Positions 17,302 through 48,400 of a DNA stretch of 64,000 nucleotides are shown one piece after another; positions within the stretch are counted from its first letter, which is position 1; each line of letters starts with the position of its first letter. The translations under genes were made by a program, and so were the position numbers. The stretch covers positions 56,261,675 through 56,325,674 of the forward strand of contig CM077162.1 of NCBI GenBank assembly GCA_039583875.1, read 5' to 3'. The notes beneath the pieces are model-generated. The model was not told where the DNA came from and made no database searches. It saw only the letters and a list, made by a program, of their open reading frames with translations. The stretch comes from Platanthera guangdongensis. Lineage: Eukaryota; Streptophyta; Magnoliopsida; Asparagales; Orchidaceae.

Positions 17302-17315
17302 ACTCTCCCCCACTT
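17302..17315 (-). other. Polypurine tract of B
   Basis: The minus strand reads AAGTGGGGGAGAGT directly before the LTR start TGTAACACCCCAG. Confidence 0.85.
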
Positions 17316-17964: not shown

Positions 17965-20270
17965 TGTAACACCCCCTATCCGTCGCATAGCATATATCAG
18001 TAGGTCCGGCCGGGGCCCGACGCCATATACCACAGACAGACCGGGTGGTTACTTATGGAAACCATCCAACCAATCTCAACGTCCTACACAGAGCATTCTA
18101 GCGGAAGCAGTTTATAAAAGTTGTAAACAAGAACCCAGCATTAAAGCACGAATGTCCACTAGTACAAATTAGGAATGTTATACAAAAATACCCAAAACCG
18201 GCCTTAAGGCCTTACAAAATGTTTCACTTGAATATTACATGTTTTACAAACCACGGCACGCAGGCCGGTCATACATGAATAAAGCAGTAAACACTTCTAC
18301 TTGGGCCTTCGAGGGCCAGCTTCGCAAAAAGGGCTTTAGCCCGCTATTGACCGCTTGGTCCAGCTGCACCTGCAAGCAACAAACCACCGCACGGTGGCAA
18401 AAACAAGGCAACGGTCAGCAATGCTGACCAAATTATAACGATCCCGCCCCCAACTCGGGGTGGCGATGCTCCTTCCCTGCATTTCATTAGCATAAGCGAG
18501 CAATGTATATAACCATAGCCATTTCATCACAGATGTTGACTCGCACGGCCACACGCCCCGTGCACTCAGGGCACATTCTCGGTGAACCGGTCTATGTCAC
18601 GTCAATTCAAGCCATCAACATTCCGGACTCACCACCGCCAACTGACGGCCAAACCTATGAGCAATTTGTCTTCTCGGCCTGGGTCACGACAATTTAAGCC
18701 ATACCGCCGAAGACCCTACTCTATGCCAATGGTAAGTGCCACGTGCCTTTAGGTCTCTTTAACCGAACGACATAGAACGGGTACGGTTCCATCTAACCCG
18801 TGCTCACATCGCAACGGCAATTTAAGCCATTTGCGCGGGTCAAACTTCCACCGAGTCCCATTTCTATCACAGTTCACATAACCTCGTTATGTTCAAGTTG
18901 GCTCTCAAGCCACCAAGTTGGCAAGATCTCGTATCCGCCCAGTTTTCCGGGTGCACCTTTGGGTTAGTCCCCAAGGCTCCCTGCTGCAATCTACCGCGTA
19001 GAAAACCCGAAAAACAACCAATAGCACGGAGTCTTCTCCGACATTATGCAATGCAACATCACCGATCCAGACCAACATGTCCGGGTAGGCTTCACACATC
19101 ATGCCTATGTCCGTTCTCGCATAAGGACTCTAAACAACGGGGACTTCACATATCTACCCGAAGGAACGCCTCCAACTCTCCGCAAACTCGCGAGAGCGGG
19201 CTTCCTATGCTAAGAAAGAGAGCGACTCATGCTCAAGATGAGGATCGTTACCCTTGAGTTCCTCTTTGGCGCCATTGAAAAGTAATCGGATGAAAACAAC
19301 CGTACTAGCGTTGCCTCCGTGGATCCGGGGTCGGCTCGCGATTCGGAGCTACGAAGCTCCTCCAATGGCGGGATCTAGCTCTTCTTCCTCCCTTGGTTTT
19401 CCTCTTTCTCTAAGGATTTGGAAAGGGATAAGATAAGAAAAGTGATGGATTTCTAAGTCAATCCAGGGGTATATCCCTTCAGGAACATCCCCCAGCCGTT
19501 GGATCTCAAAACAAGGAAACGAACGGCTTTGATTCGGGGCTGAAATGCCCAATCTGGACCGAACACGGCCTGGCACACGCCCGTGTCCAGGGCCGTGTGC
19601 CGCATTCGCCGTCAAAATCGAATCACCTGGAACCTCACACGGGTATCGAACACGCCCGTGTTCGAGCTGACACGCCCGTGTTCCACCTGACACGGCCGTG
19701 TGGCCGGCCGTGTACCCCATGATTTTTCCCCTTTTTCAACCCGAGCACTGCACGGGTTCTAGGACACGCCCGTGTCCTTGCCCGTGTCACTTTGACACGC
19801 CTGGACCCCAGGCCGTGTACACGGTCTCGACATTTCGTCGCGTGAAGATCGATGACTTGATGACACGGCCTCGGACACGCCCGTGTCCTAGGTCGTGTGC
19901 CTTGTCTCGACGATCGTCGAGCGAATCTCGACGACTCCCCGGGACGATCGTCGACACGGGTCGACACGCCCTGCGACACGCCCGTGTCGCGGGCCGTGTG
20001 CCCATTCTCGACGAATCGTCGAGTATATCTCGACGACTCCGCGGCTAAGTGTCGACACGGGTCGACACGCCCTGCGACACGCCCATGTCGCAGGCCGTGT
20101 GCCCATTCTCAGCGAATCGTCGAGAAAATCTCGACGACTTCGCGGCTAAGTGTCGACACACGCTTGACACGCCCTGGGACACGGCCGTGTCCCAGGCCGT
20201 GTGCCTGCAGCCAGAACCCAAACTGGCCCAAAACGTCCCCCTTTGCTCCTTTGAGTTTCGGGGCGTTACA
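17965..20270 (-). repeat. C 3' LTR (2306 bp)
   Basis: TGTAACACCCCCTATCCGTC to GGGGCGTTACA. A dyad array occupies about 19560-20215, with ACACGGCCGTGT-type palindromes alternating with CTCGACGAATCGTCGAG-type palindromes. Differences from 25201-27507 are scattered single bases. Confidence 0.96.
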
Positions 20271-20284
20271 ACTCTACCACTCTT
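20271..20284 (-). other. Polypurine tract of C
   Basis: The minus strand reads AAGAGTGGTAGAGT before TGTAACGCCCC. It is less purine-pure than usual. Confidence 0.75.
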
Positions 20285-20322
20285 AAAAGAATTTCGCCCA
20301 CGAAATTACATAAAGGAAAGAC

Positions 20323-23300
20323 TTACAAAACAAAATTTGTACCTGAGCGGAACAACTCCGGATACTCGTCAAGCATAGTCTGCTCTCGCTCCCAAGAGAG
20401 CTCCTCACGACCGAAATTGTCCCACCGGACCTTGACCATCCTGATCTCTTTATTGCGTAGCCGCTTGACCTCCGAGTCCTCAATCCGCATGGGCTTGACC
20501 TTTGTCGTTAGCCCACTATCCACCGTCACTTGATCAACCGCGATCACTTGCGTAGGCTCTTGCACCGCCTTCCGAAGTACCGAAATGTGGAATACATCGT
20601 GTAAACCACTAAGCTCCACTGAAAGCTTCAACCGATAGGCTGCTTCCCCAACTCGCTCCAGGACCTCGAACGGTCCAAGGTACCTCGGGCTTAGCTTTTT
20701 CAATCGCCGCACCCGCGAGACACCCTTGAACGGATTGATCTTTAGGTATACATAATCGCCTACAGCGAACTCCACGTTCCTGTGCTTGGCATTATAGTAC
20801 TTTGCTTGCCGGTCCTGAGCGATAAGCAACCTCTCCCGAATGGTTCTCACCAAATAAGTAGCATCATCCACTTCCGATCGCTTATACAACTTTGACTCAC
20901 CCGTTTCTAACCAAGACAACGGCGTGCGACATCTTCTACCATATAGGGCCTCGAAGGGCGCCATCTGAATACTCGCTTGGTAGTTGTTGTTGTATGCGAA
21001 CTCCGCCAAGTAAAGGTGGTCTTCCCATTGCTTTCCAAAATTCAAGACACACATGCGAAACATGTCTTCCATGGTTCTATTGACCCTCTCAGTCTGCCCA
21101 TCCGTTTGTGGATGAAAGGCTGTGCTGAATTTCAGCTTTGTTCCCAACATTTGCTGCACAAGCATCCAATCATTGGACGTGAACCGCCCATCTCGGTCAC
21201 TCACGATGCTGCGGGGCACACCATGAAGCCGTACTATGTTATCCACATAAAGCTTTGCCAGCTTCTCCACCGGATCATCCTTCCTATGCGGAATAAAATG
21301 CGACACCTTCGTTAATCGATCAACAACCACCCAAATGGTGTCGTTTCCCTTTTGCGACCTTGGCAAACCGTGCACAAAGTCCATAGAGATGTCGTCGAAT
21401 TTCCACTCTGGAATAGGCAAGGACTTAAGAAATCCTCCCGGCTTTTGGCACTCCGCCTTTACCAAGGCGCACGTTTGGCACTTCGCTACGTATAGCGCCA
21501 CATCCTTTTTCAAACCCGGCCACCAAAATAGTTTCTTCACATCACGGTACATCTTTGTGCTCCCCGGGTGAATCGAGTACTTGGTATGGTGCGCCTCGTA
21601 CAACAACCCCACCCGTAAATTGCCCACACTTGGGACGCATAGACGACCGTCTTTCCACAGTAATCCGTCCTCCACGACGAATTGGGAATTTGACCCATCC
21701 AGAGCCTCTACCATGAACTGCTTCATATGAGCATCCATATCCAAAGCTTGCCGAATACGATCAGCCAGGTCATATTGGACTTCAGTCCAATTCAGAACTG
21801 CTTCAGCACTAGATTGTCTATCCACACAAACAATCTCCAACGCCTCCAACTCCCGCACCAACCGCTCATCATGCACTGATAGCCAATTGGCTTGAGCTAG
21901 GGCTCGGCGACTCAACGCGTCCGCAACCACATTCCCTTTGCCAGGCACGTAGTGGATCTTGAATGTATAGTCCCCCAGGAACTCCATCCATCTACGCTGC
22001 CGCATATTCAGATCCTTCTGATCTATCAAATATTTCAGGCTCTTATGATCGGTGTAGATATCAATCTTCACACCGTACAAATAGTGTCTCCACAGCTTCA
22101 AGGCAAAAATCACGGCCGCCAACTCCAAGTCATGGACCGGATAATTCCACTCGTGCACTTTTAGCTATCTCGAGCCATAAGCTATCACGCTTCCGTGCTG
22201 CAGTAGCATGCAACCCAAACCGCTGCCCGAAGCATCGCTATATATCTCATAGCCTTCGGTTCCACATGGCAAACTCAGCACAGGCGCCGTGGTCAACCGA
22301 CACTTCAATTCCTCAAAAGCTCGCGCGCACTCCGGCGTCCAAACGAACTTATGCTCCTTCCTCGTCAAAGTAGTGAGAGGTAACGCTAACCGCGAGAAGT
22401 TCTCTACGAAGCGCCTATAATAGCCGGCAAGCCCCAAAAAGCTCCGGACTTCTGCTACCGTAGCAAGCTCAGGCGACTCCCGTATCGCAACAATCTTCGT
22501 CGGATCCATAGCAATACCCTCTCCACTCACTATATGCCCGAGGAACGCCACTGAGGATAGCCAAAACTCGCACTTCGAGAACTTGGCATACAACTGATTT
22601 CTCCTTAGCGTTTCCAACACCAAATGGAGATGCTTGAAGTGATCTTCCTCACTTTGCGAGTACACCAAAATATCATCGATGAAGACGATCATGAAATGGT
22701 TCAAGTACTCCCTGAAAGTCCTGTTCATCAAATCCATGAACACTGACGGCGCATTAGTCAGCCCAAACGGCATGACCGTAAACTCATAATGTCCGTACCT
22801 TGTACTAAACGCTGTCTTCGGGATATCACTCTCCCTTTTTTGCAGCTGATAGTACCCAGCCTTGAGATCCAACTTCGAGTACACCGTCGACCCGACTAAC
22901 TGATCAAAGAGATCATCAATCCAGGGGATTGGGTACTTGTTCTTCTTCGTCAGCTTGTTTAGCTCCCGATAATCAATACATAGCCTCAAGCTTCCGTCCT
23001 TCTTCTTAACAAAGAGGACCGGTGCGCTCCAAGGCAAAGAACTCGGGCGCACATACCCTTGCTCCAACAACTCTTGCAGTTGAACTTTCAGCTCTGCCAT
23101 TTCCTTAGGCGCTAGGCGATACGGAGATCGTGACACAGGCTTTGCACCTGGCACTAGCTCGATCGTAAAATCTATCTCCCGTTGAGGCGGGGCTCCAGGA
23201 AGATCTGCGGGGAACACATCAGGGTATTCCGATACCACTGAAATACAATCCAAAGCGGGCTTCGGCTTTGTAACCTCCACTAGTGTAAAGAACAGTTCTG

Positions 23301-23748
23301 CTCCGGCACGAACCGCCTTCACCACCTGAAGAGCAGACATCAACGTCTTGCTCGACCCCTTTAAGCTCGTAAAAGTCGTCTCACGACTTGCTCCCAGCTT
23401 GACTTCCTTGCTACCGCAATCTATATGGGCATGCTGCTCCGAGAGCCAGTCCATGCCAAATATGACGTCAAACTCCACTAACGGAAGTAAAGACGCCCGC
23501 AGGTCAAACTCCTGCTCCCCAATACGAATCTTAACATCGCAGATCCTAACTGCTCACATCGAACACCCATTGGGCAACAACACATCCAACTTATCCTTCG
23601 CCATCGAAGAAGGGACTCCGATGCGTGATATAAATCCTTCGGACAAGAAGGAGTGTGAAGCTCCCGTATCGAAGAGTGCTCGTGCCGGATTTTCACAAAT
23701 CAATACAAATCCTAAACAAGTAGTGGTAATGTAACATATGCATAACAA
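20323..23748 (-). pseudogene. pol: C pol: protease, RT, RNase H, integrase, chromodomain-like tail (two premature stops)
   Basis: Protease has an intact site ([17 protein letters not shown], about 23640-23690). RT shows [38 protein letters not shown] and the catalytic FIDD ([12 protein letters not shown]). RNase H has [16 protein letters not shown] and [20 protein letters not shown]. Integrase has the HHCC finger ([19 protein letters not shown]), then [20 protein letters not shown] and [11 protein letters not shown] with D, D and E. The end is [19 protein letters not shown] and YPELF. Stops occur near 23555 (CGA to TGA; D has Arg) and near 22160 (CAG to TAG; D has Gln). Otherwise the frame is continuous over about 1140 codons. 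Confidence 0.93.
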
Positions 23749-23776
23749 GCATATAAAGAAAGTGACTTGCTATAAA

Positions 23777-24925
23777 TTAAATCATACATGTCACCACATC
23801 AGCTTGTTTGATGGCCTCCTGTTGGCCAAGATTATAGACCCTTGGTTGGGCCGGAGCATAGTGGGATGCGGTCGACTCCACCGCCTTTCCCTTCTCTTCA
23901 TAGGTAGCTCCCGGCCTCCTCTCGGACTTAGGACGTCCGCTCCAACAATCACGGGCGAAATGCCCCGTCTTTCCGCATGTAAAACACGCGCCCGGGGTCC
24001 GACCCGTAGTCGCCCCAGAAGCACCAGAAGGAGCTGGACCCGAAGTCCTATACTTCTTGAAAGACCTCCGATAGCCGGACTTTGAAGTAGTCGGCACTCT
24101 GAACTCCGATCTCTTCTCACCCAAGCTTTTCTTCGCTTGCACGCTCTTCATGTCCTTCTCCAAGGATTGGGCAGTATTGACCAAGGTTAAGAAACCCTGC
24201 GTCATCGGCCCTGAAAGTAATAATCTCAACTCATCCCTCAGGCCTTCATAGAAGCGATTAGTCTTGCGCTCCTCATCCATGATGGTGGAGCTAGCATATC
24301 GACTCAGACGAGTAAACTCGTGGAGGTATTCATCCACGCTCCTCTCACCCTGTACCAACTTCAGGAACTCATTCTCCAACGCTATCCTCTGCGTCGAATG
24401 GAGGTATCTAGCAAAAAATAATCTCGAGAACTCCTCCATCGAGACATCACAAAGTTGCCTACCTCTCAGTAAGTGCAGCTCCAATCCTTCCCACCACATC
24501 CTCGCTTCACCGTCCAGCAGGAACGTAGCGATGGTGGTCATTTGCCACTCCTCCGTCTCCGTCGCTGTCATGACTCTCTTCACCCTGGAGAGCCAGTCTT
24601 CAGCCTGAGATGGGTTCCCAACCCCGAGAATAACAGAGGGTTAAAGCTCATTACATGCTTCAGCTACCTCTCAGTTGCCCTCCTTGGCACTATTGGTTCC
24701 ACAATCACTTGCTCCACTCTCCTCGGCTCAGCCTCTTGAAGAGGTACTTGCTCCATCACAGGAGCGGGCTGCTGCGCTTACCTTCCAGGCTGCGCATTGA
24801 TCACGGCCAACACCGCTTCAGCCACCAATCGTATATTTTCAGCCGACAGAGGTGTTGCAGGAGCAACATCCGGTGCACTACTAGCCTCAGAAACTCGGCG
24901 TTCTGACGGCCCAACACCACTTCTG
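23777..24925 (-). pseudogene. gag: C gag, lightly damaged
   Basis: Gag of the retrotransposon particle. The capsid part includes EWQMTTIATFLLDGEARMWW, RSVDEYLHEFTRLSRYASST and NRFYEGLRDELRLLLSGPM. The nucleocapsid has an intact knuckle CFTCGKTGHFARDC (about 23950-23990). Upstream of 24583 the N-terminal part is broken by stops (one is CAG to TAG/CAA to TAA in the Gln-Ala-Gln-Gln region near 24775) and a frame change near 24610. The equivalent gag in D is open. Confidence 0.88.
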
Positions 24926-25140
24926 GTCACCTATAGTGGTACAAAACACCGTTAAGCGACCAAATAAATTGCAAACAACAATTATAGGAACACGCAGGTT
25001 CCTCAAACACGAGTATTTTCATTCCTAAGTGGACATTCATGGGTTCTTTTACCATTATAACGATGACGCACACAATGTGCTCACCACCCCTTAAAAAGAA
25101 TTCGCCCACTAATTCACTTGAAGCCCGACCAAAACCAGTA

Positions 25141-25160
25141 GTCTGATACCAAATTGTAAC
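25141..25160 (-). repeat. Second, partial copy of the PBS/LTR-end junction in C
   Basis: The + strand reads TCTGATACCAAATTGTAACAC, the same arrangement as the real junction 40 bases to the right (TTTGATACCAAATTGTAACACC). A short piece of primer site plus LTR terminus is thus duplicated inside the leader. Confidence 0.8.
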
Positions 25161-25179
25161 ACACAGGTCCCAAGATCGA

Positions 25180-25197
25180 AACCTGGCTTTGATACCA
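25180..25197 (-). other. Primer-binding site of C
   Basis: The minus strand reads TGGTATCAAAGCCAGGTT, matching the initiator-Met complement with one mismatch. A 3-base spacer separates it from the LTR at 25201. Confidence 0.93.
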
Positions 25198-25200
25198 AAT

Positions 25201-27507
25201 TGTAACACCCCCTATCCGTCGCATAGCATATAGCAGTAGGTTCGGCCGGGGCCCGATGCCATATACCACAGACAGACCGGGTGGTTACTTATGGAAACCA
25301 TCCAACCAATCTCAACGTCCTACACAGAGCATTCTAGCGGAAGCAGTTTATAAAAGTTGTAAACAAGAACCCAGCATTAAAGCACGAATGTCCACTAGTA
25401 CAAATTAGGAATGTTATACAAAAATACCCAAAACCAGCCTTAAGGCCTTACAAAATGTTTCACTTGAATATTACATGTTTTAAAAACCACGGCACGCAGG
25501 CCGGTCATACATGAATAAAGCAGTAAACACTTCTACTTGGGCCTTCGAGGGCCAGCTTCGCAAAAAGGGCTTTAGCCCGCTATTGACCGCTTGGTTCAGC
25601 TGCACCTGCAAGCAACAAACCACCGCACGGTGGCAAAAACAAGGCAATGGTCAGCAATGCTGATCAAATTATAACGATCCCGCCCCTAACTCGGGGCGGC
25701 GATGCTCCTTCCCTGCATTTCATTAGCATAAGCGAGCAATGTATATAACCATAGCCATTTCATCACAGACGTTGGCTCGCACGGCCACACGCCCCGTGCA
25801 CTCAGGGCACATTCTCGGTGAACCGGTCTATGTCACGTCAATTCAAGCCATCAACATTCCGGACTCACCACCGCCAACTGACGGCCAAACCTATGAGCAA
25901 TTTGTCTTCTCGGCCTGGGTCACGACAATTTAAGCCATCAACCGCCGAAGACCCTACTCTATGCCAACGGTAAGTGCCACGTGCCTTTAGGTCTCTTTAA
26001 CCGAACGACATAGAACGGGTACGGTTCCATCTAACCCGTGCTCACATCACAACGGCAATTTAAGCCATTTGCGCGGGTCAAACTTCCACCGAGTCCCATT
26101 TCCATCACAGTTCACATAACCCCGTTATGTTCAAGTTGGCTCTCAAGCCACCAAGTTGGCAAGATCTCGTATCCGCCCAGTTTTCCGGGTGCACCTTTGG
26201 GTTAGTCCCCAAGGCTCCCTGCTGCAATCTACCGCGTAGAAAACCCGAAAAACAACCAATAGCACGGAGTCTTCTCCGGCATTATGCAATGCAACATCAC
26301 CGATCCAGACCAACATGTCCGGGTAGGATTCACACATCATATCTATGTCCATTCTCGCATACGGACTCTAAACAACGGGGACTTGACATATCTACCCGAA
26401 GGAATGCCTCCAACTCTCCCAAACTCGCGAGAGCGGGCTTCCTATACTAAGAAAGAGAGCTATTCATGCTCAAGATGAGGATCGTTACCCTTGAGTTCTT
26501 CTTTGGCGCCATTGAAAAGTAATCGGATGAAAACAACCGTACTAGCGTTGCCTCCGTGGATCCGGGGTCGGCTCGCGATTCGGAGCTCCGAAGCTCCTCC
26601 AATGGCGGGATCTAGCTCTTCTTCCTCCCTTGGTTTTCCTCTTTCTCTAAGGATTTGGAAAGGGATATGATAAGAAAAGTGATGGATTTCTAAGTCAATC
26701 CACGGGTATATCCCTTCAGGAACATCCCCCAGCCGTTGGATCTCAAAACAAGGAAACGAACGGCTTTGATTCGGGGCTGAAATGCCCAATCTGGACCGAA
26801 CACGGCCTGGCACACGCCCGTGTCCAGGGCCGTGTGCCGCATTCGCCGTCAAAATTGAATCACTTGGAACCTCACACGGGTATCGAACACACCCGTGTTC
26901 GAGCTGACATGCCCGTGTTCCACCTGACACGGCCGTGTGGCCGGCCGTGTACCCCATGATTTTTCCCTTTTTTCAACCCGAGCACTGCACGGGTTCTAGG
27001 ACACGCCCGTGTCCTTGCCCGTGTCACTTTGACACGCCTGGACCCCAGGCCGTGCACACGGTCTCGACATTTCGTCGCGTGAAGATCGATGACTTGATGA
27101 CACGGCCTCGGAAACGCCCGTGTCCTAGGCCGTGTGCCTTGTCTCGACGATCGTCGAGCGAATCTCGACGACTCCCCGGGACGACCATCGACACGGGTCG
27201 ACACGCCCTGCGACACGCCCGTGTCGCGGGCCGTGTGCCCATTCTCGATGAATCGTCGAGTATATCTCGACGACTCCGCGGCTAAGTGTCGACACGGGTC
27301 GACACGCCCTGCGACACGCCCGTATCGCAGGCCGTGTGCCCATTCTCAGCGAATCATCGAGAAAATCTCGACGACTTCGCGGCTAAGTGTCGACACACGC
27401 TTGACACGCCCTGGGACACGCCCGTGTCCCAGGCCGTGTGCCTGCAGCCAGAACCCAAACTGGCCCAAAACGTCCCCCTTCGCTCCTTTGAGTTTCAGGG
27501 TGTTACA
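25201..27507 (-). repeat. C 5' LTR (2307 bp)
   Basis: TGTAACACCCCCTATCCGTC to TTTCAGGGTGTTACA. The dyad array is at about 26800-27450. The last bases before the terminus differ from the left LTR (CAGGGTGTTACA versus CGGGGCGTTACA). Confidence 0.96.
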
Positions 27508-31662: not shown

Positions 31663-31665
31663 AAT

Positions 31666-34266: not shown

Positions 34267-34362
34267 AGAATAAATCCTATACAAGATGTGGGACTAAAGA
34301 AGGATGAGAGAAAGCAATAAAGAGGGCCAATAAATGAGCCCTTTACATGGGCTTTTCTAATA
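34267..34362 (-). repeat. Copia-2 5' LTR, part 2 (with B's target duplication)
   Basis: It begins with the repeated AGAAT of element B and continues AAATCCTATACAAGATGTGGG to TCTAATA, the remainder of the 180-bp LTR begun at 14635. Confidence 0.94.
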
Positions 34363-34939: not shown

Positions 34940-35943
34940 TCTAAGACCCTTTTTTTCTTTTAAACCACCGGGGTCTTATGCCTAGAACCGCCGCTTTGCA
35001 GTGACACCAAGACACCCGGGAGGTCGTCACTACAAAATGCCGATCCTGTCGGCCATGCCGATCGCAGAAGAGTAGAAGTATAAATAGTACATGAGTAAAG
35101 TAGAACTCAATACTGGTCCACCAGGATCACATATATATAAATAAATCTCCACGAAGGGAGAGTCCATAGAAAAGAATAAGCGAAGTACTAAAAAGGGCTC
35201 TTGCCTGATACATCAAGATCCTCACTACAAGTCACTCAACGCGAAATCAAATCTATAATAATTACTAATGATCGAGACTCACAGTCTATACTGACTTGAC
35301 TCCAGTTCTATACTACCCTGTCTCCATGCACACCGACCTTTGGGGCTGCATCTCCTGATGCGGCTCAACGATCCCCTAAAATGATTTGATAAATGACCGT
35401 TAGTATAAAAAGAGTAAGTCCTATCATCCCCCACCCCTCCCCCATGGATCCTAGGCACCGAGCGGGGAGGAGGAAAGGGAAGGTAATGAAGGTGGAGAGT
35501 AATAAAATAAACAGGTGACGGCAGAACTAGTCTATCATGATTATATAATCATAGCAAGTATAAGTAAGCAGTAGTAAGTAAGCAATATAAATATACACAA
35601 GAACAAGTGAACAAGTATAGTATGAGAAAGTAAAATAAGAAAGTAACCATGACCTATAGGAATGCTCATACAAACCTATAGACCAATGGGTCGTTTTGCA
35701 AGACTTATTGTATAAAGCGTCTCATACCACTTTATACAATAGGTGTCAGGGGTTATATGCAATGATGATGCTATGACATGCAAGTATGCCATGATGTGAA
35801 TCATGCAAGTGCAACACACCCACTCGATTCTATGTACATAGAACTTTAGTTCCCCTTTCTGGAGCCTAACCTCCCAAGATACCTCCGCAGTGGCAAACGG
35901 AAGCCGTGGGTTGGGCCTTGCCCACCTCTAAACCAGTATCAGC
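34940..35943 (-). other. E, left part: no gene
   Basis: No coding potential is seen. Notable are a pyrimidine run at about 35428-35450 (CCCCCACCCCTCCCCCATGG) and a short imperfect repeat, TTGTATAAAGCG and TTTATACAATAGG, at about 35708-35745. The last five bases, TCAGC, are the target duplication of element D. Confidence 0.6.
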
Positions 35944-38249
35944 TGTAACACCCCCTATCCGTCGCATAGCATATAGCAGTAGGTCCGGCCGGGGCCCGAC
36001 GCCATATACCACAGACAGACCGGGTGGTTACGTATGGAAACCATCCAACCAATCTCAACGTCCTACACAGAGCATTCTAGCGGAAGCAATTTATAAGAGT
36101 TACAAATCAAGAACCCAGCACAAGCATGAATGTCCACTAAAACCAAAAGGAATGTCATTACAAAATACTCAAAAGTCGGCCTTAAGGCCTTACGAGATGT
36201 TTCATTTGTCTATTACATGATTTACCAACCTCGGCACGCAGGCCGGCCATACATGAATAAAATAGAAAACATTTCCACTTGGGCCTTCGAGGGCCAGCTT
36301 CGCAAAAAGGGCTTTAGCCCGCTATTGACCGCTTGGTCCAGCTGCACCTGCAAGCAAACAAACCACCGCACGGTGGCAAACAAAGCAACGGTCAGCAATG
36401 CTGACCAAATTATAACGATCCCGCCCCCAACTCGGGGCGGCGATGCTCCTTCCCTGCAGTTCATTAGCACAAGCGAGCAATGCATATAACCATAGCCATC
36501 TTCATCACAGACGTTGGCTCGTACGGCCACACGTCACCGTGCACTCAGGGCACATTCTCGGCGAACCGGTCGATGTCACGTCAATTAAAGCCATTAACAT
36601 TCCGGACTCACCACCGCCACTTAGACGGCCATTCCTATGAGCAATTCGTCTTCATGGTATTGGTCACGTCAATTTAAGCCATTGACCACCGAAGACTCAC
36701 ATCTATGCCAACGGCGAGTGCCATGTAACTTTAGGTCTCTCTAACCCGAACGACATAAAGCGGGTACGGCTCCATCTAACCCGTGCTCACATCGCAACGG
36801 CAATTTAAGCCATTTGCGCGGGTCAAACTTTCACCGAGTCCCATTCTACCGCAAGACACATAACCCCGTTATGTTCATGTTGGCACTCAGGCCACCAAGT
36901 TGGCAAGACCTCGTGTCCGCCCAGTTTTCCGGGTGCACCTTTGGGTTAGTCCCCAAGGCTCCCTGCTGCAATCTACCGCGTAGAAAACCCGAAAACACCA
37001 AATAGCACGGAGTCTTCTCCGGCCTTATGCAATGCAACATCACCGATCCGAACTAACATGTCCGGGTAGGCTTCAACCACAATGCATATGTCCGTTCTCG
37101 CATACGGACGCTAAACAACGGGGACTTTACATATCTACCCGAAGGAATGCCTCCAACTCTTCGCAAACTCGCGAGAGAGGGCTTCCTATGCTAAGAAAGA
37201 AAGCTATCAAGCTCACAAGTGAGGATCGTTACCCTTGCGTTCCTCTTTGGCGCCATCGAAATGTAATCGGATAGAAATCACCGCGCTTGCGTTGCCTCCG
37301 TGGATCCGGAGTCGGCTTGCGATTCGGAGCTCCGAAGCTCCTCCAATGGCGGATCTAGCTCCTCTTCCTCTAGCCTTGGCTCTTCTTTCTCCAAGGGTTT
37401 GGAGAGAGATCAAGTGATGAAAAGTGTGGATTTTTCTAAGTCAAACCCGTGTATATCCTCCAGGAACCATCCCCAGCCGTCGGATCTCAACCTAAGAAAA
37501 CGAGCGGCTTTGATTCGGGGCTGAAATGCTCAATCTGGGCCGAACACGGCTTGGCACACGCCCGTGTCCAGGGCCGTGTGCCGCATTCGCCGTCAAAATC
37601 GAATCTTCTGAACACGCACACGGGTATCGAACACGCCCGTGTTCGAGCTGACACGCCCGTGTTCCAGCTGACACGGCCGTGTAGCCGGCCGTGTACCCAT
37701 GATTTTTCCCCGTTTCCAACCCGAGCACTGCACGGGTTCTAGGACACGCCCGTGTCCTTGCCCGTGTCACATTGACACGCCTGGGCCCCCAGGCCGTGTA
37801 CACGGGACATTTCATCGAGGGGAGAACGACGACTGGATGACACGGCCTTGGACACGCCCGTGTCCTAGGCCGTGTGCCTTGTCTCGACGACCGTCGAGTG
37901 AATCTCGACGATTTCACCTTGACGCTCGTCGACACGGGTCGACACGCCCGACGACACGCCCGTGTCGCGGGCCGTGTGCCCATTCTCGACGAATCGTCGA
38001 GAATAACTCGACGATTTCACGGCTAAGTGTCGACACGGGTCGACACGCCCTGCGACACGCCCGTGTCGCAGGCCGTGTGCCCATTCTCGACGAATCGTCG
38101 AGAATAACTCGACGACTTCGCGGCTAAGTGTCGACACACGCTTGACACGCCCTGGGACACGCCCGTGTCCCAGGCCGTGTGCCTTCAGCCAGAAACCAAA
38201 ACTGGCCCAAAACGTCCCCCTTTGCTCCTTTGAGTTTCGGGGCGTTACA
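35944..38249 (-). repeat. D left LTR (2306 bp, normal orientation)
   Basis: TGTAACACCCCCTATCCGTC to GGGGCGTTACA, with the dyad array at about 37540-38185. It is the 3' LTR, next to the PPT. Confidence 0.96.
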
Positions 38250-41200
38250 ACTCTACCCCTCTTAAAAGAATTTCGCCCACGAAATCACATAAAGGGAAAA
38301 ACATGTACAAAACAAAATTTGTACCTGAGCGGAACAACTCCGGATATTCGTCAAGCATCGTCTGCTCTCGCTCCCAGGAGAGCTCCTCACGACCGCAATT
38401 GTCCCACCGGACTTTGACCATCCTGATCTCTTTATTGCGTAGCCGCTTGACCTCCGAGTCTTCAATCCGCACGGGCTTGACCTTTGTCGTTAGCCCACTA
38501 TCCACCGGCACTTGATCGACCGCGATCACTTGCGTAGGCTCTTGCGCCGCCTTCCCTAAGTACCGAAATGTGGAATACATCGTGTAAACCACTTAGCTCC
38601 ACAGAAAGCTTCAACCTATAGGCCGCTTCTCCACTCGCTCCAGAACCTCGAACGGTCCAAGGTACCTCGGGCTTAGCTTTTTCAATCGCCGCACCCGCGA
38701 GACACCCTTGAACGGCTTGATCTTCAAGTATACATAATCGCCCACAGCGAACTCCACGTTCCTGTGCTTGGGATTATAGTACTTTGCTTGCCGGTCCTGA
38801 GCCATGAGCAACCTCTCCCGAATGGTTCTTACCAAGGAAGTAGCATCCTCCACTTCCGATCGCTTATACAACTTTGACTCGCCCGTTTCTAACCAAGACA
38901 ACGGCGTGCGACATCTTCTACCATAAAGGGCCTCGAAAGGCGCCATCTGAATACTTGCTTGGTAGCTGTTGTTGTGTATGCGAACTCCACCAAATAAAGA
39001 TGGTCCTCCCATTGCTTTCCAAAGTCCAAGACACACATGCGAAGCATGTCTTCCATGGTTCTATTGACCCTCTCGGTCTGCCCATCCGTTTGTGGATGGA
39101 AGGTTGTACTAAACTTCAGCTTTGTTCCCAACATTTGCTGCACCAGCCTCCAATCATTGGACGTGAACCGCCCATCACGGTCACTCACGATGCTGCGGGG
39201 CACACCATGAAGCCGTACTATATTATCCACATAAAGCTTCGCCAGCTTCTCCACCGGATCGTCCTTCCTATGCGGAATAAAGTGCGACACCTTCGTTAAT
39301 CGATCGACCACCACCCAAATGGCGTCGTTCCCCTTCTGCGACCTTGGCAAACCATGCACAAAGTCCATAGAGATGTCGTCGAATTTCCACTCCGGAATAG
39401 GCAAGGACGTAAGAAATCCTCCCGGCTTTTGGCACTCCGCCTTTACTAAGGCGCAGGTTTGGCACTTCGCTATGTATAGCGCCACATCCTTCTTCAAACC
39501 CGGCCACCAAAATAGCTTCTTGATATCGCGGTACATCTTCGTGCTCCCGGGTGAATCGAGTACTTGGTATGGTGTGCCTCGTACAACAACTCCACCCGTA
39601 AATTGCCCACACTTGGGACGCACAAACGACCGTCTTTCCAAAGCAATCCGTCCTCCACGACGAATTGGGAATTTGACCCATCCAGAGCCTCTATCATGAA
39701 CTGCTTCATATGAGCATCCATATCCAAAGCCTGCCGAATCCGATCAGCCAGGTCATATTGGACTTCAGTCCAATTCAGCACTGCTTCAGCGCTAGATTGT
39801 CTATCCACACAAACAATCTCCAACGCCTCCAGCTCCTGCACCAACCGCTCATCATGCACTGATAGCCAATTCGCTTGAGCTGGGGCTCGGCGACTCAATG
39901 CATCCGCAACCGCATTCCCTTTGCCAGGCACGTAGTGGATCTTAAAAGTATAGTCCCCCAGGAACTCCATCCACCTACGCTGCCGCATATTCAAATCTTT
40001 CTGATCTATTAGATACTTTAGGCTCTTGTGATCGGTGTAGATGTCAATCTTCACACCGTACAAATAGTGTCTCCACAGCTTCAAGGCAAAAATCACGGCC
40101 GCTAACTCCAAGTCATGGACCGGATAATTCCTCTCGTGCACTTTTAGTTGTCTCGAGCCATAAGCTATCACGCTGCCGTGCTGCAGTAGCACGCAACCCA
40201 AACCGCTGCCTGAAGCATCGCTATATATCTCATAGCCTTCGGTCCCAACCGGCGAACTCAACACAGGCGCCGTGGTCAACCGACACTTCAATTCCTCAAA
40301 AGCTCGCGCGCACTCCGGCGTCCAAATGAACTTATGCTCCTTCCTCGTCAAAGTAGTGAGAGGTAGCGCTATCCGCGAGAAGTTCTCTACGAAGCGCCTA
40401 TAATAACCGGCAAGCCCCAAAAAGCTCCGGACTTCTGCTACCGTAGCAAGCTCAGGCCACTCCCGTATCGCAACAATCTTCGCCGGATCCACCGCAATAC
40501 CCTCTCCACTCACTATATGCCCGAGGAACGCCACTGAGGATAGCCAAAACTCGCACTTCGAGAACTTGGCATACAACTGGTTTCTCCTGAGTGTCTCCAA
40601 CACCAAATGGAGATGCTTGAAGTGATCCTCCTCACTTTGCGAGTACACCAAAATATCGTCGATGAAGACGATCACGAAATGGTCTAGGTACTCCCTGAAC
40701 GTCCTGTTCATCAAGTCCATGAATACTGACGGCGTATTAGTCAGCCCAAACGGCATGACCGTAAACTCATAATGCCCGTATCTCGTACTAAACGCTGTCT
40801 TCGGGATATCACTCTCCCTTATCCGCAGCTGATAGTACCCAGACTTGAGATCTAACTTCGAGTACACCGTCGACCCGACTAACTGATCGAAGAGATCATC
40901 AATCCGGGGGATCGGGTACTTATTCTTCTCAGTCAGCTTGTTTAGCTCCCGATAATCAATACACAACCTCAAGCTTCCGTCCTTCTTCTTAACAAAGAGG
41001 ACCGGTGCGCTCCAAGGCGAAGAACTCGGGCGCACATACCCTTGCTCCAACAACTCTTGCAACTGTACTTTCAGCTCCGCCATTTCCTTAGGCGCTAGCC
41101 GATACAGAGATCGTGACACAGGCTTTGCACCTGGCACTAGCTCGATAGTAAAATCTATCTCCCGTTGTGGCGGGGCTCCAGGAAGATCTGCAGGGAACAC

Positions 41201-41731
41201 ATCAGGGTATTCCGATACCACTGAAATACAATCCATAGCGGGCTTCGGCTTTGCAACCTCCACTAGAGTGAAGAACAGTTCTGCTCCGGCACGAACTGCC
41301 TTAACCACTTGAAGAGCAGACATCAATGTTTTGCTCGACCCCTTTAAGCCCTTAAACGTCGTCTCACGACTCGCTCGCAGCTTGACTTCCTTGCTACCGC
41401 AATCTATATGGGCCTGCTGCTCCGAGAGCCAGTCCATGCCAAATATGACGTCAAACTCCACTAACGGAAGTAAAGACGCCCGCAGGTCGAACTCCTGCTC
41501 TCCAATACGAGTCTTAACCTCGCAGATCCTAACCGCTCGCATCGAACACCCATTGGGCAATAACACATCCAACTTGTCCTTCGCCATCGAAGAAGGGACT
41601 CCGATGCGTGATATAAATCCTTCGGACAAGAAGGAGTGTGAAGCTCTCGTATCAAAGAGTGCTCGTGCGGGATTTTCACAAATCATTACAAATCCTAAAC
41701 AAGCAGTGGTAAGGTAACATATACATAACAA
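38245..41731 (-). pseudogene. pol: D pol, with frameshifts and a changed protease active site
   Basis: The domain order is as in C. The frame is open from 41731 to about 39552 and covers protease, RT (FIDD in [12 protein letters not shown]), RNase H and the start of integrase. Compared with C there is a 1-base loss at about 39548 (CTCCCGGGT versus CTCCCCGGGT), a 2-base gain near 38972 (TTGTGTATG versus TTGTATG), a 1-base loss near 38630 and a 1-base gain near 38557. Each shifts the frame in integrase or its tail. The protease motif reads [10 protein letters not shown]: codon 41645-41647 is AGA where B and C have Gly, which should abolish activity. Integrase residues D, D and E are otherwise present ([26 protein letters not shown]). 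Only indels, not stops, break the frame, so assembly error should be considered. Confidence 0.9.
38250..38263 (-). other. Polypurine tract of D
   Basis: The minus strand reads AAGAGGGGTAGAGT before TGTAACGCCCC. Confidence 0.82.
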
Positions 41732-41759
41732 GCATATAAAGGAATTGACTTGCTATAAA

Positions 41760-42914
41760 TTAAACCGTACCTGTCACCACGTCAGCTTGTTTAATGGCCT
41801 CCTGTTGGCCAAGATTATAGACCCTTGGTTGGGCCGGAGCATAGTGGGATGCGGTCGACTCCACCGCCTTTCCCTTCTCTTCGTAGGTAGCTCCTGGCCT
41901 CCTTTCGGACTTAGGACGTCCGCTCCAACAATCACGGGTAAAGTGCCCCGTCTTGCCGCAAGTAAAACACGCACCCGGGGTCCGACCCGTAGTCGCCCCA
42001 GAAGCGCCAGAAGGAGCTGGACCCGAAGTCCTATGCTTCTTGAAAGCCCTCCGATAGCCAGACTTCGAAGTAGTCGGCACTTTAAACTCAGACTTCTTTT
42101 CACCCAAGCTTTTCTTTGCCTGTACACTCCTCATGTCCTTCTCCAAGGACCGGGCAGTATTCACCAAGGTTAAGAAACCCTGCGTCATCGGCCCCGACAG
42201 TAATAGTCTCAGCTCATCCCTCAGACCTTCGTAGAAGCGATTAGTCTTGCGCTCCTCATCCATGATGGTAGAGCTCGCATAACGACTCAACCGCGTAAAC
42301 TCGTGGAGATATTCATCCACGCTTCGCTCACCCTGCACCAACCTCAGGAACTCATTCTCCATTGAAATCCTCTGAGTAGAAGGGAGGTATCTTGCTAAGA
42401 ACAATTCCGAGAACTCTTCCATCGGAACGTCTATCAATTGTCTTCCTCTCAGATGATGCAGCTCCAAGCCTTCCCACCACATCCTTGCTTCACCGTCCAA
42501 CAGGAACGTAGCAATGGTGGTCATCTGCCACTCCTCCGTCTCCGTCGCTGTCATGACTCTCTTCACCCTAGAGAGCCAGTCTTCAGCCTGCGATGGGGTT
42601 CCCAACCCCGAGAATAACGGAGGGTTAAAGCTCATTACATGCTTCAACTGCCTCTCAGTCGCCCTCCTTGGCACTATTGGTTCTACAACCACTTGCTCCA
42701 TCCTCCTCGGCTCCGCCTCTTGAAGAGGTACTTGCTCCATCACAGGAGCTGGCTGCTGCGCTTGCCTCCCAGGCTGCGCATTTATCACGGCTAGCACCGC
42801 TTCAGCCACCAATCTTATATTTTCAGCCGACAAAGGTGTTGCGGGAGCAACTTCTGGTGCACTACTTGCCTCAGAACCTCGGCGTTCTGACGGCCCAACA
42901 CCACTTCTGGTCAC
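41760..42914 (-). CDS. gag: D gag, uninterrupted (about 384 codons)
   Basis: This is the only full-length undamaged gag in the window. The frame opens with GTG ACC AGA (42914) right after an AG and a TATAG stop, and no ATG lies near the conserved N-terminus (TRSGVGPSERRGSEASSAPE); the first in-frame ATG is about 58 codons in. The capsid domain is at residues about 115-255 (MTTIATFLLDGEARMWWEGL, VDEYLHEFTRLSRYASSTIM). A complete zinc knuckle CFTCGKTGHFTRDC lies near residue 320. The end is AIKQADVVTGTV with a stop, and protease follows in a separate open frame about 30 bases on. A start by splicing or at a non-ATG codon is inferred. Gag assembles the particle and packages the RNA. Confidence 0.85.
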   Translation of the reverse strand: MTRSGVGPSERRGSEASSAPEVAPATPLSAENIRLVAEAVLAVINAQPGRQAQQPAPVMEQVPLQEAEPRRMEQVVVEPIVPRRATERQLKHVMSFNPPLFSGLGTPSQAEDWLSRVKRVMTATETEEWQMTTIATFLLDGEARMWWEGLELHHLRGRQLIDVPMEEFSELFLARYLPSTQRISMENEFLRLVQGERSVDEYLHEFTRLSRYASSTIMDEERKTNRFYEGLRDELRLLLSGPMTQGFLTLVNTARSLEKDMRSVQAKKSLGEKKSEFKVPTTSKSGYRRAFKKHRTSGPAPSGASGATTGRTPGACFTCGKTGHFTRDCWSGRPKSERRPGATYEEKGKAVESTASHYAPAQPRVYNLGQQEAIKQADVVTGTV

Positions 42915-43125
42915 CTATAGTGGTACAAAACACCGTTAAGCGACCAAATAACATTGCAAACAGCAATTATAGGAACACGCAGGTTCCTCAAACACGAGTA
43001 TTTTCATTCCTAAGTGGACATTCATGGGTTCTCTTTACTGTTATAACGATGACGCACACAATGTGCTCACCACCCCTTAAAAAGAATTCGCCCACGAATT
43101 CAATTCAAGCCCGACCAAAACCAGT
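42915..43125 (-). other. D leader, lacking the primer-binding site
   Basis: The sequence matches C's leader (24926-25140) up to GACCAAAACCAGT and then joins directly to TGTAACGCC, the U3 end of the inverted LTR. The 60 bases that hold C's primer site and LTR junction are absent. The last three leader bases, AGT, are also the last three bases of the PPT before a normal U3 start. Confidence 0.85.
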
Positions 43126-45431
43126 TGTAACGCCCCGAAACTCAAAGGAGCAAAGGGGGACGTTTTGGGCCAGTTTTGGTTTCTGGCTGAAGGCACACGG
43201 CCTGGGACACGGGCGTGTCCCAGGGCGTGTCAAGCGTGTGTCGACACTTAGCCGCGAAGTCGTCGAGTTATTCTCGACGATTCGTCGAGAATGGGCACAC
43301 GGCCTGCGACACGGGCGTGTCGCAGGGCGTGTCGACCCGTGTCGACACTTAGCCGTGAAATCGTCGAGTTATTCTCGACGATTCGTCGAGAATGGGCACA
43401 CGGCCCGCGACACGGGCGTGTCGTCGGGCGTGTCGACCCGTGTCGACGAGCGTCAAGGTGAAATCGTCGAGATTCACTCGACGGTCGTCGAGACAAGGCA
43501 CACGACCTAGGACACGGGCGTGTCCAAGGCCGTGTCATCCAGTCGTCGTTCTCCCCTCGACGAAATGTCCCGTGTACACGGCCTGGGGGCCCAGGCGTGT
43601 CAATGTGACACGGGCAAGGACACGGGCGTGTCCTAGAACCCGTGCAGTGCTCGGGTTGGAAACGGGGGAAAAATCATGGGTACACGGCCGGCTACACGGC
43701 CGTGTCAGCTGGAACACGGGCGTGTCAGCTCGAACACGGGCGTGTTCGATACCCGTGTGCGTGTTCAGAAGATTCGATTTTGACGGCGAATGCGGCACAC
43801 GGCCCTGGACACGGGCGTGTGCCAAGCCGTGTTCGGCCCAGATTGGGCATTTCAGCCCCGAATCAAAGCCGCTCGTTTTCTTAGGTTGAGATCCGACGGC
43901 TGGGGATGGTTCCTGGGAGGATATACACGGGTTTGACTTAGAAAAATCCACACTTTTCATCACTTGATCTCTCTCCAAACCCTTGGAGAAAGAAGAGCCA
44001 AGGCTAGAGGAAGAGGAGCTAGATCCGCCATTGGAGGAGCTTCGGAGCTCCGAATCGCAAGCCGACTCCGGATCCACGGAGGCAACGCAAGCGCGGTGAT
44101 TTCTATCCGATTACATTTCGATGGCGCCAAAGAGGAACGCAAGGGTAACGATCCTCACTTGTGAGCTTGATAGCTTTCTTTCTTAGCATAGGAAGTCCTC
44201 TCTCGCGAGTTTGCGAAGAGTTGGAGGCATTCCTTCGGGTAGATATGTAAAGTCCCCGTTGTTTAGCGTCCGTATGCGAGAACGGACATAGGCATTGTGG
44301 TTGAAGCCTACCCGGACATGTTAGTTCGGATCGGTGATGTTGCATTGCATAAGGCCGGAGAAGACTCCGTGCTATTTGGTGTTTTCGGGTTTTCTACGCG
44401 GTAGATTGCAGCAGGGAGCCTTGGGGACTAACCCAAAGGTGCACCCGGAAAACTGGGCGGACACGAGGTCTTGCCAACTTGGTGGCCTGAGTGCCAACAT
44501 GAACATAACAGGGTTATGTGTCTTGCGGTAGAATGGGACTCGGTGAAAGTTTGACCCGCGCAAATGGCTTAAATTGCCGTTGCGATGTGAGCACGGGTTA
44601 GATGGAGACGTACCCGCTTTATGTCGTTCGGGTTAGAGAGACCTAAAGTTACATGGCACTCGCCGTTGGCATAGATGTGAGTCTTCGGTGGTCAATGGCT
44701 TAAATTGACGTGACCAATACCATGAAGACGAATTGCTCATAGGAATGGCCGTCTAAGTGGCGGTGGTGAGTCCGGAATGTTAATGGCTTTAATTGACGTG
44801 ACATCGACCGGTTCGCCGAGAATGTGCCCTGAGTGCACGGGACGTGTGGCCGTACGAGCCAACGTCTGTGATGAGATGGCTATGGTTATATGCATTGCTC
44901 GCTTGTGCTAATGAACTGCAGGGAAGGAGCATCGCCGCCCCGAGTTGGGGGCGGGATCGTTATAATTTGGTCAGCATTGCTGACCGTTGCTTTGTTTGCC
45001 ACCGTGCGGTGGTTTGTTTGCTTGCAGGTGCAGCTGGACCAAGCGGTCAATAGCGGGCTAAAGCCCTTTTTGCGAAGCTGGCCCTCGAAGGCCCAAGTGG
45101 AAATGTTTTCTATTTTATTCATGTATGGCCGGCCTGCGTGCCGAGGTTGGTAAATCATGTAATAGACAAATGAAACATCTCGTAAGGCCTTAAGGCCGAC
45201 TTTTGAGTATTTTGTAATGACATTCCTTTTGGTTTTAGTGGACATTCATGCTTGTGCTGGGTTCTTGATTTGTAACTCTTATAAATTGCTTCCGCTAGAA
45301 TGCTCTGTGTAGGACGTTGAGATTGGTTGGATGGTTTCCATACGTAACCACCCGGTCTGTCTGTGGTATATGGCGTCGGGCCCCGGCCGGACCTACTGCT
45401 ATATGCTATGCGACGGATAGGGGGTGTTACA
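43126..45431 (+). repeat. D right LTR (2306 bp), inverted relative to the left LTR
   Basis: It is the reverse complement of 35944-38249 with about ten differences, for example GTACGTCTCC for GTACGGCTCC and ACGTCCCGTGC for ACGTCACCGTGC. The U3 terminus TGTAACGCCCC faces the leader and the U5 terminus GGGGGTGTTACA faces the target site. The dyad array is at about 43190-43835. Confidence 0.96.
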
Positions 45432-48400
45432 TCAGCACTAACAGTTAGACCTATCGTATGCCTCAATGCTGGTGCACTAAGTGGAGCTCCTGCATACTCT
45501 TGCCGGCTGGAACACCAGACTTTATTTGGCCAAGTGCTAAACCACACTTGCCGAGTCAATGTATTGACGTCGGTGCGACGACTCTCCAATATCGAAGACT
45601 TATTACCTTTATCTTATGCACATGCAATATTACCATGATCTTCCACTGAGCCAAAGCTCCCCGAACTATCTCGTCCGTCATAATCATCTGTTGATCCAAA
45701 AGCTCCTCGGACTAGTCCGTCCTTCACAACTATCTATCGAGCCATCGGCTTGCCGGTCTAACCTGCCCATCACCAGAACCACCGAGCCTACCGCTCGTGT
45801 TACCAACCTAACTCCCATAACACCATGGAGTGTGAGTGTATGTGTAATCCTAGTTATGCTAGTTACTCTTAAACATTAATTATTCTTACGGTTTAGGTTA
45901 GCCCAGGACTGCCAAAGGTATTCCCGGTGAAGGGCTCTCACAGGGCACTAAGAACTATGATGGTAGCTGAAGCCCATCGTTTCCTTTCGCAAGGCACTTA
46001 CTATTATTGGTTAATAACCTATTCCCAATCCCTTTTAATATTACTCTGGATCTAACCCTAGTGTGTTTTGACTCTCTCTCTCCACAGGAAAGACGATCTT
46101 TCGTCGATCCCGAGCACCTCTTAACACTTGACAACCCAACACTCTCCTCATCATGACTCCTAATAAAGCTCTCTTTTTTTTTAGTTCACCAAGATCGGTA
46201 AACCAATAATCCCATCTGCATATGTCCATTCCACTTGTTATCACAATTTCCGCAGTCATACTAAATGCAGACCAACCTAAGTTATATGATGTACATGATG
46301 GGAGATACTGCAAACTTTCTTCCAAATGCCCTAAGATAATTATTGTGGGTCTATCATGACATATTTAGTCTAAATCCAGAAATTTATAATTTTGCTAATT
46401 AATTTAGCATTTATTAGATTTTCCCAAATGCTAGGCCATGGGTAATTTTGAACATAAAGTACTAGATTTCCTTAACTTATGGCCACCCAAACATTATGAA
46501 TACTATATGACAACAAAATATCAGTGAATACCAATTTTCACAGATTTTTATAAATGTATAGATTTCTAAATAATTAACCCAAGATAATACCAATAAATAA
46601 ATATAAAGAAGGAAGCATCATTAAACTTAATCCAAAAATTATACAAAACTTGCTAGAGATTTAATATGATCACAAAACATTATTGATTAAGTTTCATAAC
46701 ATTCTAAGTTATTTTAACCACTATTTTATCAAAATCATCAATAGAGGCAACACAAGGATTAAAACTACAAGTACAATCTACTGTCTTCCAAACATTCGAC
46801 AATAATTTCTAGAGACTCATAATGTTATAAAAACCTTCCTGCCAAAATTTCCTAAGGATCCAAGGTCATATGCCCCTTCAATATTTTCCTAAAAGGTAAA
46901 GGCCTAAACTAACCCTAATTAGCTTAAGTTGTGTGCCTAAGTATAAATGTCACCAAATTCTTCCCTAGTGCATTTCACCACCCTAGAATAACATGGCCTA
47001 AACACCAAGTCCATACAAGGACATAACACCCTATGTCCTTCACAAACCCCCCGAGATCAACCCTAGGGTTTGAACTAGGGTCCTAGGGAAAATCCACCCT
47101 AATCCACCCCATAATCCATGGGAGGGTGTTTACTGACATAACACATCAGGGGACCAAGTATCAACCTCTGTTGAGGTGATTTGTCCCCTTAAGCCCACAA
47201 GGGACACGTTGACCTAATTACCCCTTTTGGGTCAAGGCTAGGGTTTACTAAAATCTAAACCAAATCATCTCCAAATGAGATGAAATTTTATACAGATACC
47301 TATATTGACCCCAACAACCTCTCACCAAAGTTTGGGATAATTTGGAGGTCATTAGACCCTCTAATTAAATTATAAAATGTTAATTAAATTTTTACAAAAA
47401 CTATAGGAAACGTATGTCCAAAAATTCTCATTTTTAGATAGGTTGTTGGTATAGATAATAGTGACCCCCATCCAAAATTTCAAGTCACTTGTATGGCTGG
47501 ATTGATGGGGCCACGCAAAATAGTCTCTAGTCTAGCCTACGCATAGTCCTCACCAAAATGAGTGCTCTTGTCAAACCGCTTACCCAAATGGATTAAAACT
47601 AATTTTAAATTAAAGTAGACCCATAGAGCTACATTTTTTCATGTTGACCATTTTTTCTTATTGATCGTATAAGTATTTGTAAATTAATTCCCAACATTAT
47701 TGATTTTTAAGGGGCAGAAAATACATTAAATATAATATATATACAATTTGATTTTGCACGGATCTTGACGCAAATCCGACGGTGGCTGAGTTTATTCTTC
47801 CTCCAGCCGACGGGTGAGATTTACCCGACCTGTAGCATCTTCCAACCCTATTTCCCGGCCACCCGACCACCTCCCTGGTCCGTCGCCGCCGTCACCATCT
47901 TCATTGAGGTGGGGGCTATCCCCGGGCGGTGGCATGGCCGCCGGAGGGGCCGTTTCCGGCGAACTCGACCATGATTTTTCCCGGAAAATCATGAAAATGA
48001 AAGCTTTGATCAGGCTCAATTGAGCCCGATTCATATTCTAAATGAATCTTAGGATCTATCCACAGAAGGAGAGGAGGAGGACCTTATTAGAGGGTTGGAG
48101 GCGGGTCGATCTTCGAGTTGCCATGGCCGGTGGTGGAGCTTCGGGTATGTTACAACCATATAGTCGGAGGGCTCGATTCCTTTAGAAAAAGTGCGGAAAC
48201 TCCTGCTCTCTGCCTGGTGAAACTTTTAAAACACTCAAATGGGGGGAGGGGAGGAGCCTAACTTGGCTCCACCCTTAATGGCCTTAAAGTGGAGATTTCG
48301 TCCATGGTGGGGGGTGTGAACCTAGGCTTAACTCGGCCGGGAAATGACTGGAAACTCATCCTCTCCCCTAGGGAAGTTGAATCCAACCATTAATGGGGGA

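Follow-up and report, generated by a model that had tools for sequence, protein, structure and literature searches.

Inverted terminal repeats in Ty3/gypsy insertions of Platanthera guangdongensis and their probable origin from mis-joined cDNA

The retrotransposon studied here lies at positions 35944..45431 of a 64-kb stretch of the Platanthera guangdongensis genome (contig CM077162.1, positions 56,261,675 to 56,325,674; hereafter the window), and its two long terminal repeats (LTRs) are reverse complements of each other. Inverted LTRs are known from DIRS-1 and related tyrosine-recombinase elements; however, as portrayed in the cited passages (PMC5633606), these use a tyrosine recombinase, whereas the family of the focal copy has an rve integrase and 5-bp target-site duplications. 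A Pfam scan of three internal open reading frames of the focal copy found Integrase_H2C2 and rve, and in these frames no tyrosine recombinase. Template-switching insertions of the Triticeae (Sabot and Schulman 2007, PMC1950507) are likewise aberrant reverse-transcription products integrated with target duplications, but in the relevant passages they are described with three LTRs, of which the outer two are highly similar, and the word "inverted" does not appear in the paper's text. Aberrant joining of complementary DNA (cDNA) ends is also reported in the pertinent parts of a preprint on auto-integration and rearranged 1-LTR circles (PMC12132167). In addition, a review passage states that alternative end joining (alt-EJ) mediates the circularisation of mdg4 and IAP cDNA guided by the primer-binding site (PBS), i.e. 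an alternative joining of cDNA ends at that site (PMC12786077). As presented in these two sources, the products are circles and not integrated linear copies with two U5 ends. A study of a cucumber LTR family met two sequences with oppositely directed LTRs and removed them in curation, and the passages concerned give no analysis of them (PMC4600303); two other papers, in the parts that touch on the subject, deal with neighbouring LTRs in opposite directions and not with inverted-LTR insertions (PMC7166211, PMC2151762). Our literature search, which covered few subscription papers and only part of the retrovirus literature and is thus not proof of novelty, found no study of integrase-type elements with inverted LTRs.

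The closest relatives are the ordinary members of the same Ty3/gypsy family, represented in the window by relative C (17965..27507) and in the genome by 20,831 boundary matches. They are like the focal copy in LTR, internal region, polypurine tract (PPT) and PBS region, but differ from it in having direct LTRs, one U3 and one U5 outer end, and a PBS. The focal copy shows the gene order, the TG...CA LTR ends, the 5-bp target duplication and the PPT before the 3′ LTR that characterize Ty3/gypsy elements. Because direct LTRs and a PBS beside the 5′ LTR, which are defining features, are absent, we regard it as an aberrant derivative of the family and not as a standard member. Most probably, integrase inserted it from an aberrant linear cDNA whose two termini were both U5 ends, formed when the PBS end of the minus strand was mis-joined to U3 by microhomology.

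Structure of the focal copy

The initial annotation had described head-to-head LTRs, two U5 outer ends, perfect duplications and a direct joint between leader and U3, and all of these were confirmed. When the LTRs (35944-38249 and 43126-45431, 2306 bp each) are aligned as reverse complements, 2297 columns match, 7 mismatch and 4 contain gaps. The U5 end is outermost at both termini (TGTAACACCCCC / GGGGGTGTTACA), TCAGC stands on either side as a perfect 5-bp target-site duplication, and the joint reads CCAGT/TGTAACG on the plus strand (the slash marks the breakpoint). The genes are encoded on the minus strand in the order gag, then protease, reverse transcriptase, RNase H and integrase, which is typical of Ty3/gypsy. 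In element sense the 3′ side is ordinary, with the PPT ending in ...AAGAGGGGTAGAGT and followed by TGTAACG; on the 5′ side the LTR stands back to front, so that its U3 end meets the leader.

All genome searches were made in the assembly that contains the window (4.25 Gb, 274 contigs). When the flanks of the focal copy were joined around a single TCAGC, the resulting string had 143 matches at up to 3 mismatches, showing that the flanks are a repeat. Three empty-site strings among these matches have one mismatch each, and all carry one TCAGC; the duplication therefore arose at insertion.

The ordinary family boundary reads CCAGT-AGTCTGATACCAAAT/TGTAACA (pattern AAAACCAGTAGTCTGATACCAAATTGTAACR, matched 20,831 times at up to 3 mismatches, with A or G as the last base). 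Compared with it, the focal copy lacks 15 nt, corresponding to the PBS and a spacer. The primer-site loss proposed initially is real, although the 60 bases then given apply to the comparison with the longer leader of relative C. There is no PBS at 43125/43126, while some sister inverted copies do carry one. Owing to this absence, the focal copy has probably reached an evolutionary dead end; copies of this kind are presumably made afresh from ordinary elements.

Alignment of the LTRs and the leader with relative C located an extra stretch of about 44 nt in the C leader, between two copies of a motif consisting of LTR end plus PBS (25140-25200). In this stretch, 36 nt are a putative complement of plant initiator tRNA-Met (3′ part), and they may represent primer read-through. 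An Rfam search of the C leader gave no match, and a tRNA gene search across the window found none. Relative C itself seems to be nested in an older element, with terminal repeats of 2.6 kb at 14721-17302 and 31663-34267 that are 94.8% alike.

The features of the focal copy and the comparison element are as follows (position in the window; strand; feature; basis).

35939..35943; unstranded; left target-site duplication TCAGC; sequence, single TCAGC at related empty sites
35944..38249; minus; normally placed LTR (3′ LTR in element sense, U5 outermost at 35944, U3 at 38249); sequence, alignment
37839..38183; unstranded; 101-bp tandem units within the normally placed LTR; tandem-repeat analysis
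38250..38263; minus; PPT plus AGT adjoining U3 (AAGAGGGGTAGAGT in element sense); alignment, sequence itself
38889..39641; minus; integrase region (Integrase_H2C2, rve); Pfam scan
39494..41731; minus; protease, reverse transcriptase, RNase H (RVP_2, RVT_1, RT_RNaseH); Pfam scan
41760..42914; minus; gag (Retrotrans_gag, zinc knuckle); Pfam scan
43072..43102; minus; PPT-like repeat in leader; local score 42, maximum of 500 shuffles 23
43121..43131; unstranded; aberrant joint CCAGT/TGTAAC of the PBS-less leader to the U3 end of the reversed LTR, with AGT microhomology; sequence, alignment, junction null
43126..45431; plus; reversed LTR (U3 inside, U5 outermost); sequence, alignment
43192..43536; unstranded; 101-bp tandem units within the reversed LTR; tandem-repeat analysis
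45432..45436; unstranded; right target-site duplication TCAGC; sequence
17965..27507; minus; ordinary relative C with direct LTRs, comparison element; self-comparison, alignment

The repeat in the leader spans 33 alignment columns of the PPT region and is perhaps a second plus-strand start. Elsewhere in the window, a tandem array at 58914-59943 comprises 12 copies of an 86-bp unit with 97% matches, and a degraded relative of the LTR at 52438-54019 is oriented opposite to the left focal LTR.

Recurrence and separate origins

Inverted-LTR copies of this family formed repeatedly, and the focal copy is not a one-off. A 120-bp query across its joint yielded 1482 candidates, and the joint was spanned at 12 of the 40 scored places, the focal copy among them (ten over query bases 1-120, two over 1-116 and 1-117). 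The exact 20-base junction had 7 genome matches, two of them inside one palindromic copy. At up to 2 mismatches there were 74 matches; 30 were fetched, of which 10 had an internal-LTR joint and 20 did not. The matches with one or two mismatches comprise some true joints and many other contexts. Of twelve loci retrieved, two were discarded, C3 88.0 Mb as an ordinary copy and C4 200.3 Mb as another context, and C17a and C17b count as one. Nine further insertions carry the reversed joint, which makes ten with the focal copy, on eight contigs: C16 (focal), C13 19.8, C14 26.7, C14 143.7, C10 132.6, C12 102.0, C17 78.86/78.89, C17 45.8, C7 169.8 and C5 195.7 Mb. The loci at C17 78.86 and 78.89 Mb are two copies of one insertion within a segmental duplication, with a common left flank (24/25 bases), and of the C5 copy, which is truncated, 172 bases of reversed LTR and a portion of the internal region are left.

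Outer ends could be read on both sides in eight of these ten insertions (all but C12 and C5). They are U5 ends in all eight, with TA in place of CA at one end of the C14 143.7-Mb copy. Seven of the eight have perfect 5-bp duplications (TCAGC, GCACA, CCGTT, GGAGA, AATCC, CAAGG, GGCTC); the remaining one agrees at 4/5 positions (ACTTT/ACTTC) in both copies of the C17 segmental duplication. In the palindromic C14 26.7-Mb copy, a reversed LTR is joined to the leader at both ends. In the inner part of this palindrome (C14:26738547-26739967) the leader arms are alike at 220/222 positions, and between its internal arms lies a 16-nt filler that forms a 7-bp hairpin with an arm end.

A second pattern search gave 36 matches, 20 of which were seen as letters. 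Ten rows (9 places) were leader-U3 joints; the other ten, without a PBS or an exact joint, were omitted, although two of these (C12 25.3 and C12 108.9 Mb) may be joints that carry one or two additional bases. Seven of the remaining 16 matches fell in known insertions and nine stayed outside the classification. From another pattern with 12 matches, C7 192.0, C17 43.5 and C18 122.3 Mb were excluded from the counts. Altogether, 14 insertions have letters at the joint, namely the ten above and four putative ones seen as strings across the joint (C6 183.7, C7 85.5, C11 41.6 and C11 135.7 Mb). Set against the 20,831 ordinary boundary matches, this amounts to about one in a thousand in order of magnitude, a figure that reflects unequal search stringency and incomplete reading of the matches and is not a rate.

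The inverted copies are not a single lineage but have separate origins. Divergence between the LTRs of one insertion ranges from a Kimura two-parameter (K2P) distance of 0.003 (focal) to 0.021 (nine rows from eight insertions, with C12 and C5 excluded; owing to the cut between stretches, 46, 9 and 4 end bases were absent from the left LTRs of C14 26.7 Mb, C10 and C14 143.7 Mb). An LTR tree was built from 26 rows, of which 20 are inverted; in it the LTRs of each insertion group together, and the four rows of the C17 duplicate group by position. Grouping by insertion together with these K2P values indicates that the copying of the reversed LTR took place when the element was formed. Interleaved with the inverted rows are six others: two LTRs of relative C, one of an ordinary C3 copy and three of unknown context. 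Constraining the six insertions with the CCAGT/TGTAACG joint to one clade was rejected (p 1.6e-112), as was the same constraint on all 20 inverted rows (p 1.1e-62). For a 1-kb piece of the focal gag, 40 of 6616 candidate places were scored, and 39 besides its own reach >=99% identity (rounded). None of these is a known inverted locus. Next to five of the 39 there are leader matches to the 120-bp junction query that break off at base 63, just behind CCAGT, the pattern expected for an ordinary leader. The C7 169.8-Mb copy is a close relative of the focal copy (98% in the LTR), yet its junction is different.

Junctions and their probable formation

The 14 insertions fall into six junction types, all of which join the PBS edge to a point within about 25 nt of the U3 end, where the searches were anchored.

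Type 1: CCAGT/TGTAACG; 6 insertions; microhomology 3 nt
Type 2: PBS and a second AAACCAGT (or AAAGCCAGT) before TGTAACG; C5 and C17 78.9 Mb, and C11 41.6 Mb with changes
Type 3: PBS to AAAT, then U3 from base 8; C17 45.8 Mb; microhomology 0 nt
Type 4: PBS to ACCAAA, then U3 from base 26 (common CAAA counted); C7 169.8 Mb; microhomology 4 nt
Type 5: PBS to AAAT, then TGTAACG; C7 85.5 Mb, and C11 135.7 Mb with changes; microhomology 7 nt
Type 6: AGTCTG, then TAACG; C6 183.7 Mb; microhomology 2 nt

U3 starts exactly at TG in 12 of the 14 joints; the U3 terminus is absent at two, by 7 nt (C17 45.8 Mb) and about 25 nt (C7 169.8 Mb). Under a null of random joins, mean microhomology was 0.33 over distinct products and 0.67 over all break pairs. 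The sum observed over five types was reached in 0/200,000 draws from distinct products, and without the 7-nt case p was 0.0009. The type 2 joint can be read, among other ways, as resembling a templated insertion; alternatively, a strand primed at AGT/ACT may have been extended by about ten bases before slippage on TTTGGT returned it to the PBS.

A wider leader-U3 pattern (24 fixed bases, reaching about 30 nt deeper into the leader) had nine matches, known by length only. Six have the type 1 length and lie at places already identified, two of these in the palindrome. C7 85.5 and C16 66.9 Mb have the length of a joint with the full PBS, and C13 120.6 Mb falls 4 nt short of type 1. The mirror joint, i.e. 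a U5 end beside the PPT, had a single match with 28 fixed bases (C5:95286210-95286292, counted by pattern only). An earlier mirror pattern (198 matches, 100 listed) was dropped, as nearly all listed matches had the length of the ordinary U3-PPT boundary and U3 ends with a C-to-T change match it too.

Since the outer ends and duplications are intact and the inner joint varies, we place the error before integration. The joints seen fall at the PBS, the usual terminus of minus-strand DNA, and at the U3 end, the two regions on which the searches were anchored. We infer that reverse transcription would extend the minus strand as far as the PBS or slightly into it, where the normal plus-strand transfer would fail. 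The minus-strand end (CCAGT, AGTCTG, ACCAAA or AAATTGTAAC) would then be joined to the U3 end of antisense LTR DNA, usually via 2-7 nt of microhomology. This partner could be provided by the same cDNA or by a second cDNA in the particle, and the joining could occur either by 3′-end priming and template switching of the reverse transcriptase or by host microhomology-mediated joining (alt-EJ). Both outer ends would thereby be tRNA-defined U5 ends, which integrase would process and insert with a 5-bp duplication.

The initial annotation had likewise proposed an integrated aberrant cDNA with two U5 ends and AGT microhomology at the junction; this account, with insertion by integrase and a normal duplication, fits the results. 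Of the two routes it offered, faulty strand transfer with joining at the PBS edge is favoured over self-integration, because the breakpoint base is identical in six insertions not united in a single clade, two joints lack the U3 terminus and microhomology exceeds the null. In self-integration, a route described for LTR elements in the relevant section of the auto-integration preprint (PMC12132167), the U3 end of the cDNA would attack its own leader and give an inversion circle with a U5-PBS-U5 junction, integrated from two U5 ends. The exact TG at most U3 starts is what integrase would leave. This route would also predict scattered target sites; the joint sites seen recur at the PBS edge, where the searches were anchored. 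The expected mirror product gave one match, known by pattern only. This result, together with the three that favour strand transfer, makes self-integration unlikely. A flip of the 5′ LTR after insertion, by recombination or repair, could draw on the short inverted repeats at the LTR ends (TGTAAC[A/G]CCCC), but in the eight insertions with both outer ends visible it is the inner joint alone that varies, the U5 ends at the target duplication being intact, and the duplication of the palindromic C14 copy is perfect as well. We therefore agree with the initial assessment and consider a later inversion very unlikely.

Several copies share one junction (the 7 exact matches, two of them in one insertion), as a DIRS-like lineage replicating with inverted LTRs would produce. 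Such a lineage is nevertheless highly improbable in view of the rejected one-clade constraints, the missing PBS in copies with the CCAGT/TGTAACG joint, the lack of known inverted loci among the 39 other scored gag places and the different junctions of the closely related focal and C7 copies; the tree with its six non-inverted rows already points to inverted copies arising beside ordinary ones. An assembly artefact at 43125/43126 would be conceivable for a structure seen in an assembly. Given that the joint occurs at ten insertions on eight contigs, with differing target duplications and LTR divergences, we consider it extremely unlikely.

Several points weigh against an origin by mis-joining at the PBS edge. 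The C17 45.8-Mb joint has no microhomology at all, and the null is limited to five junction types from a single family, its breakpoint ranges near the PBS and the U3 end having been set by the analyst. Anchoring of the searches on the leader end and the U3 start makes the clustering there partly a matter of ascertainment, and the wider pattern adds only about 30 nt of leader. The counts of mirror and leader-U3 joints (1 versus 9) are unmatched in stringency. Only six non-inverted rows are in the tree, and all of the evidence is assembly sequence.

Beyond mis-joining as such, it is a tentative and rather doubtful possibility that the inverted-LTR insertions are fossils of a host microhomology end joining that normally acts at the PBS to complete second-strand synthesis; taking the wrong partner would then yield a two-U5 cDNA that integrase fully accepts as a substrate in vivo. 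Programs that detect LTR elements search for direct repeats, and inverted-LTR copies may therefore be uncounted elsewhere. One curated survey, in the passage concerned, indeed removed inverted pairs (PMC4600303). If our interpretation is correct, each copy would show, as an experiment of nature, that concerted integration in vivo needs no more than two U5 ends, and the copies would record where and how cDNA joining fails. With their junctions one could test whether the replication of LTR elements includes end joining at the PBS.

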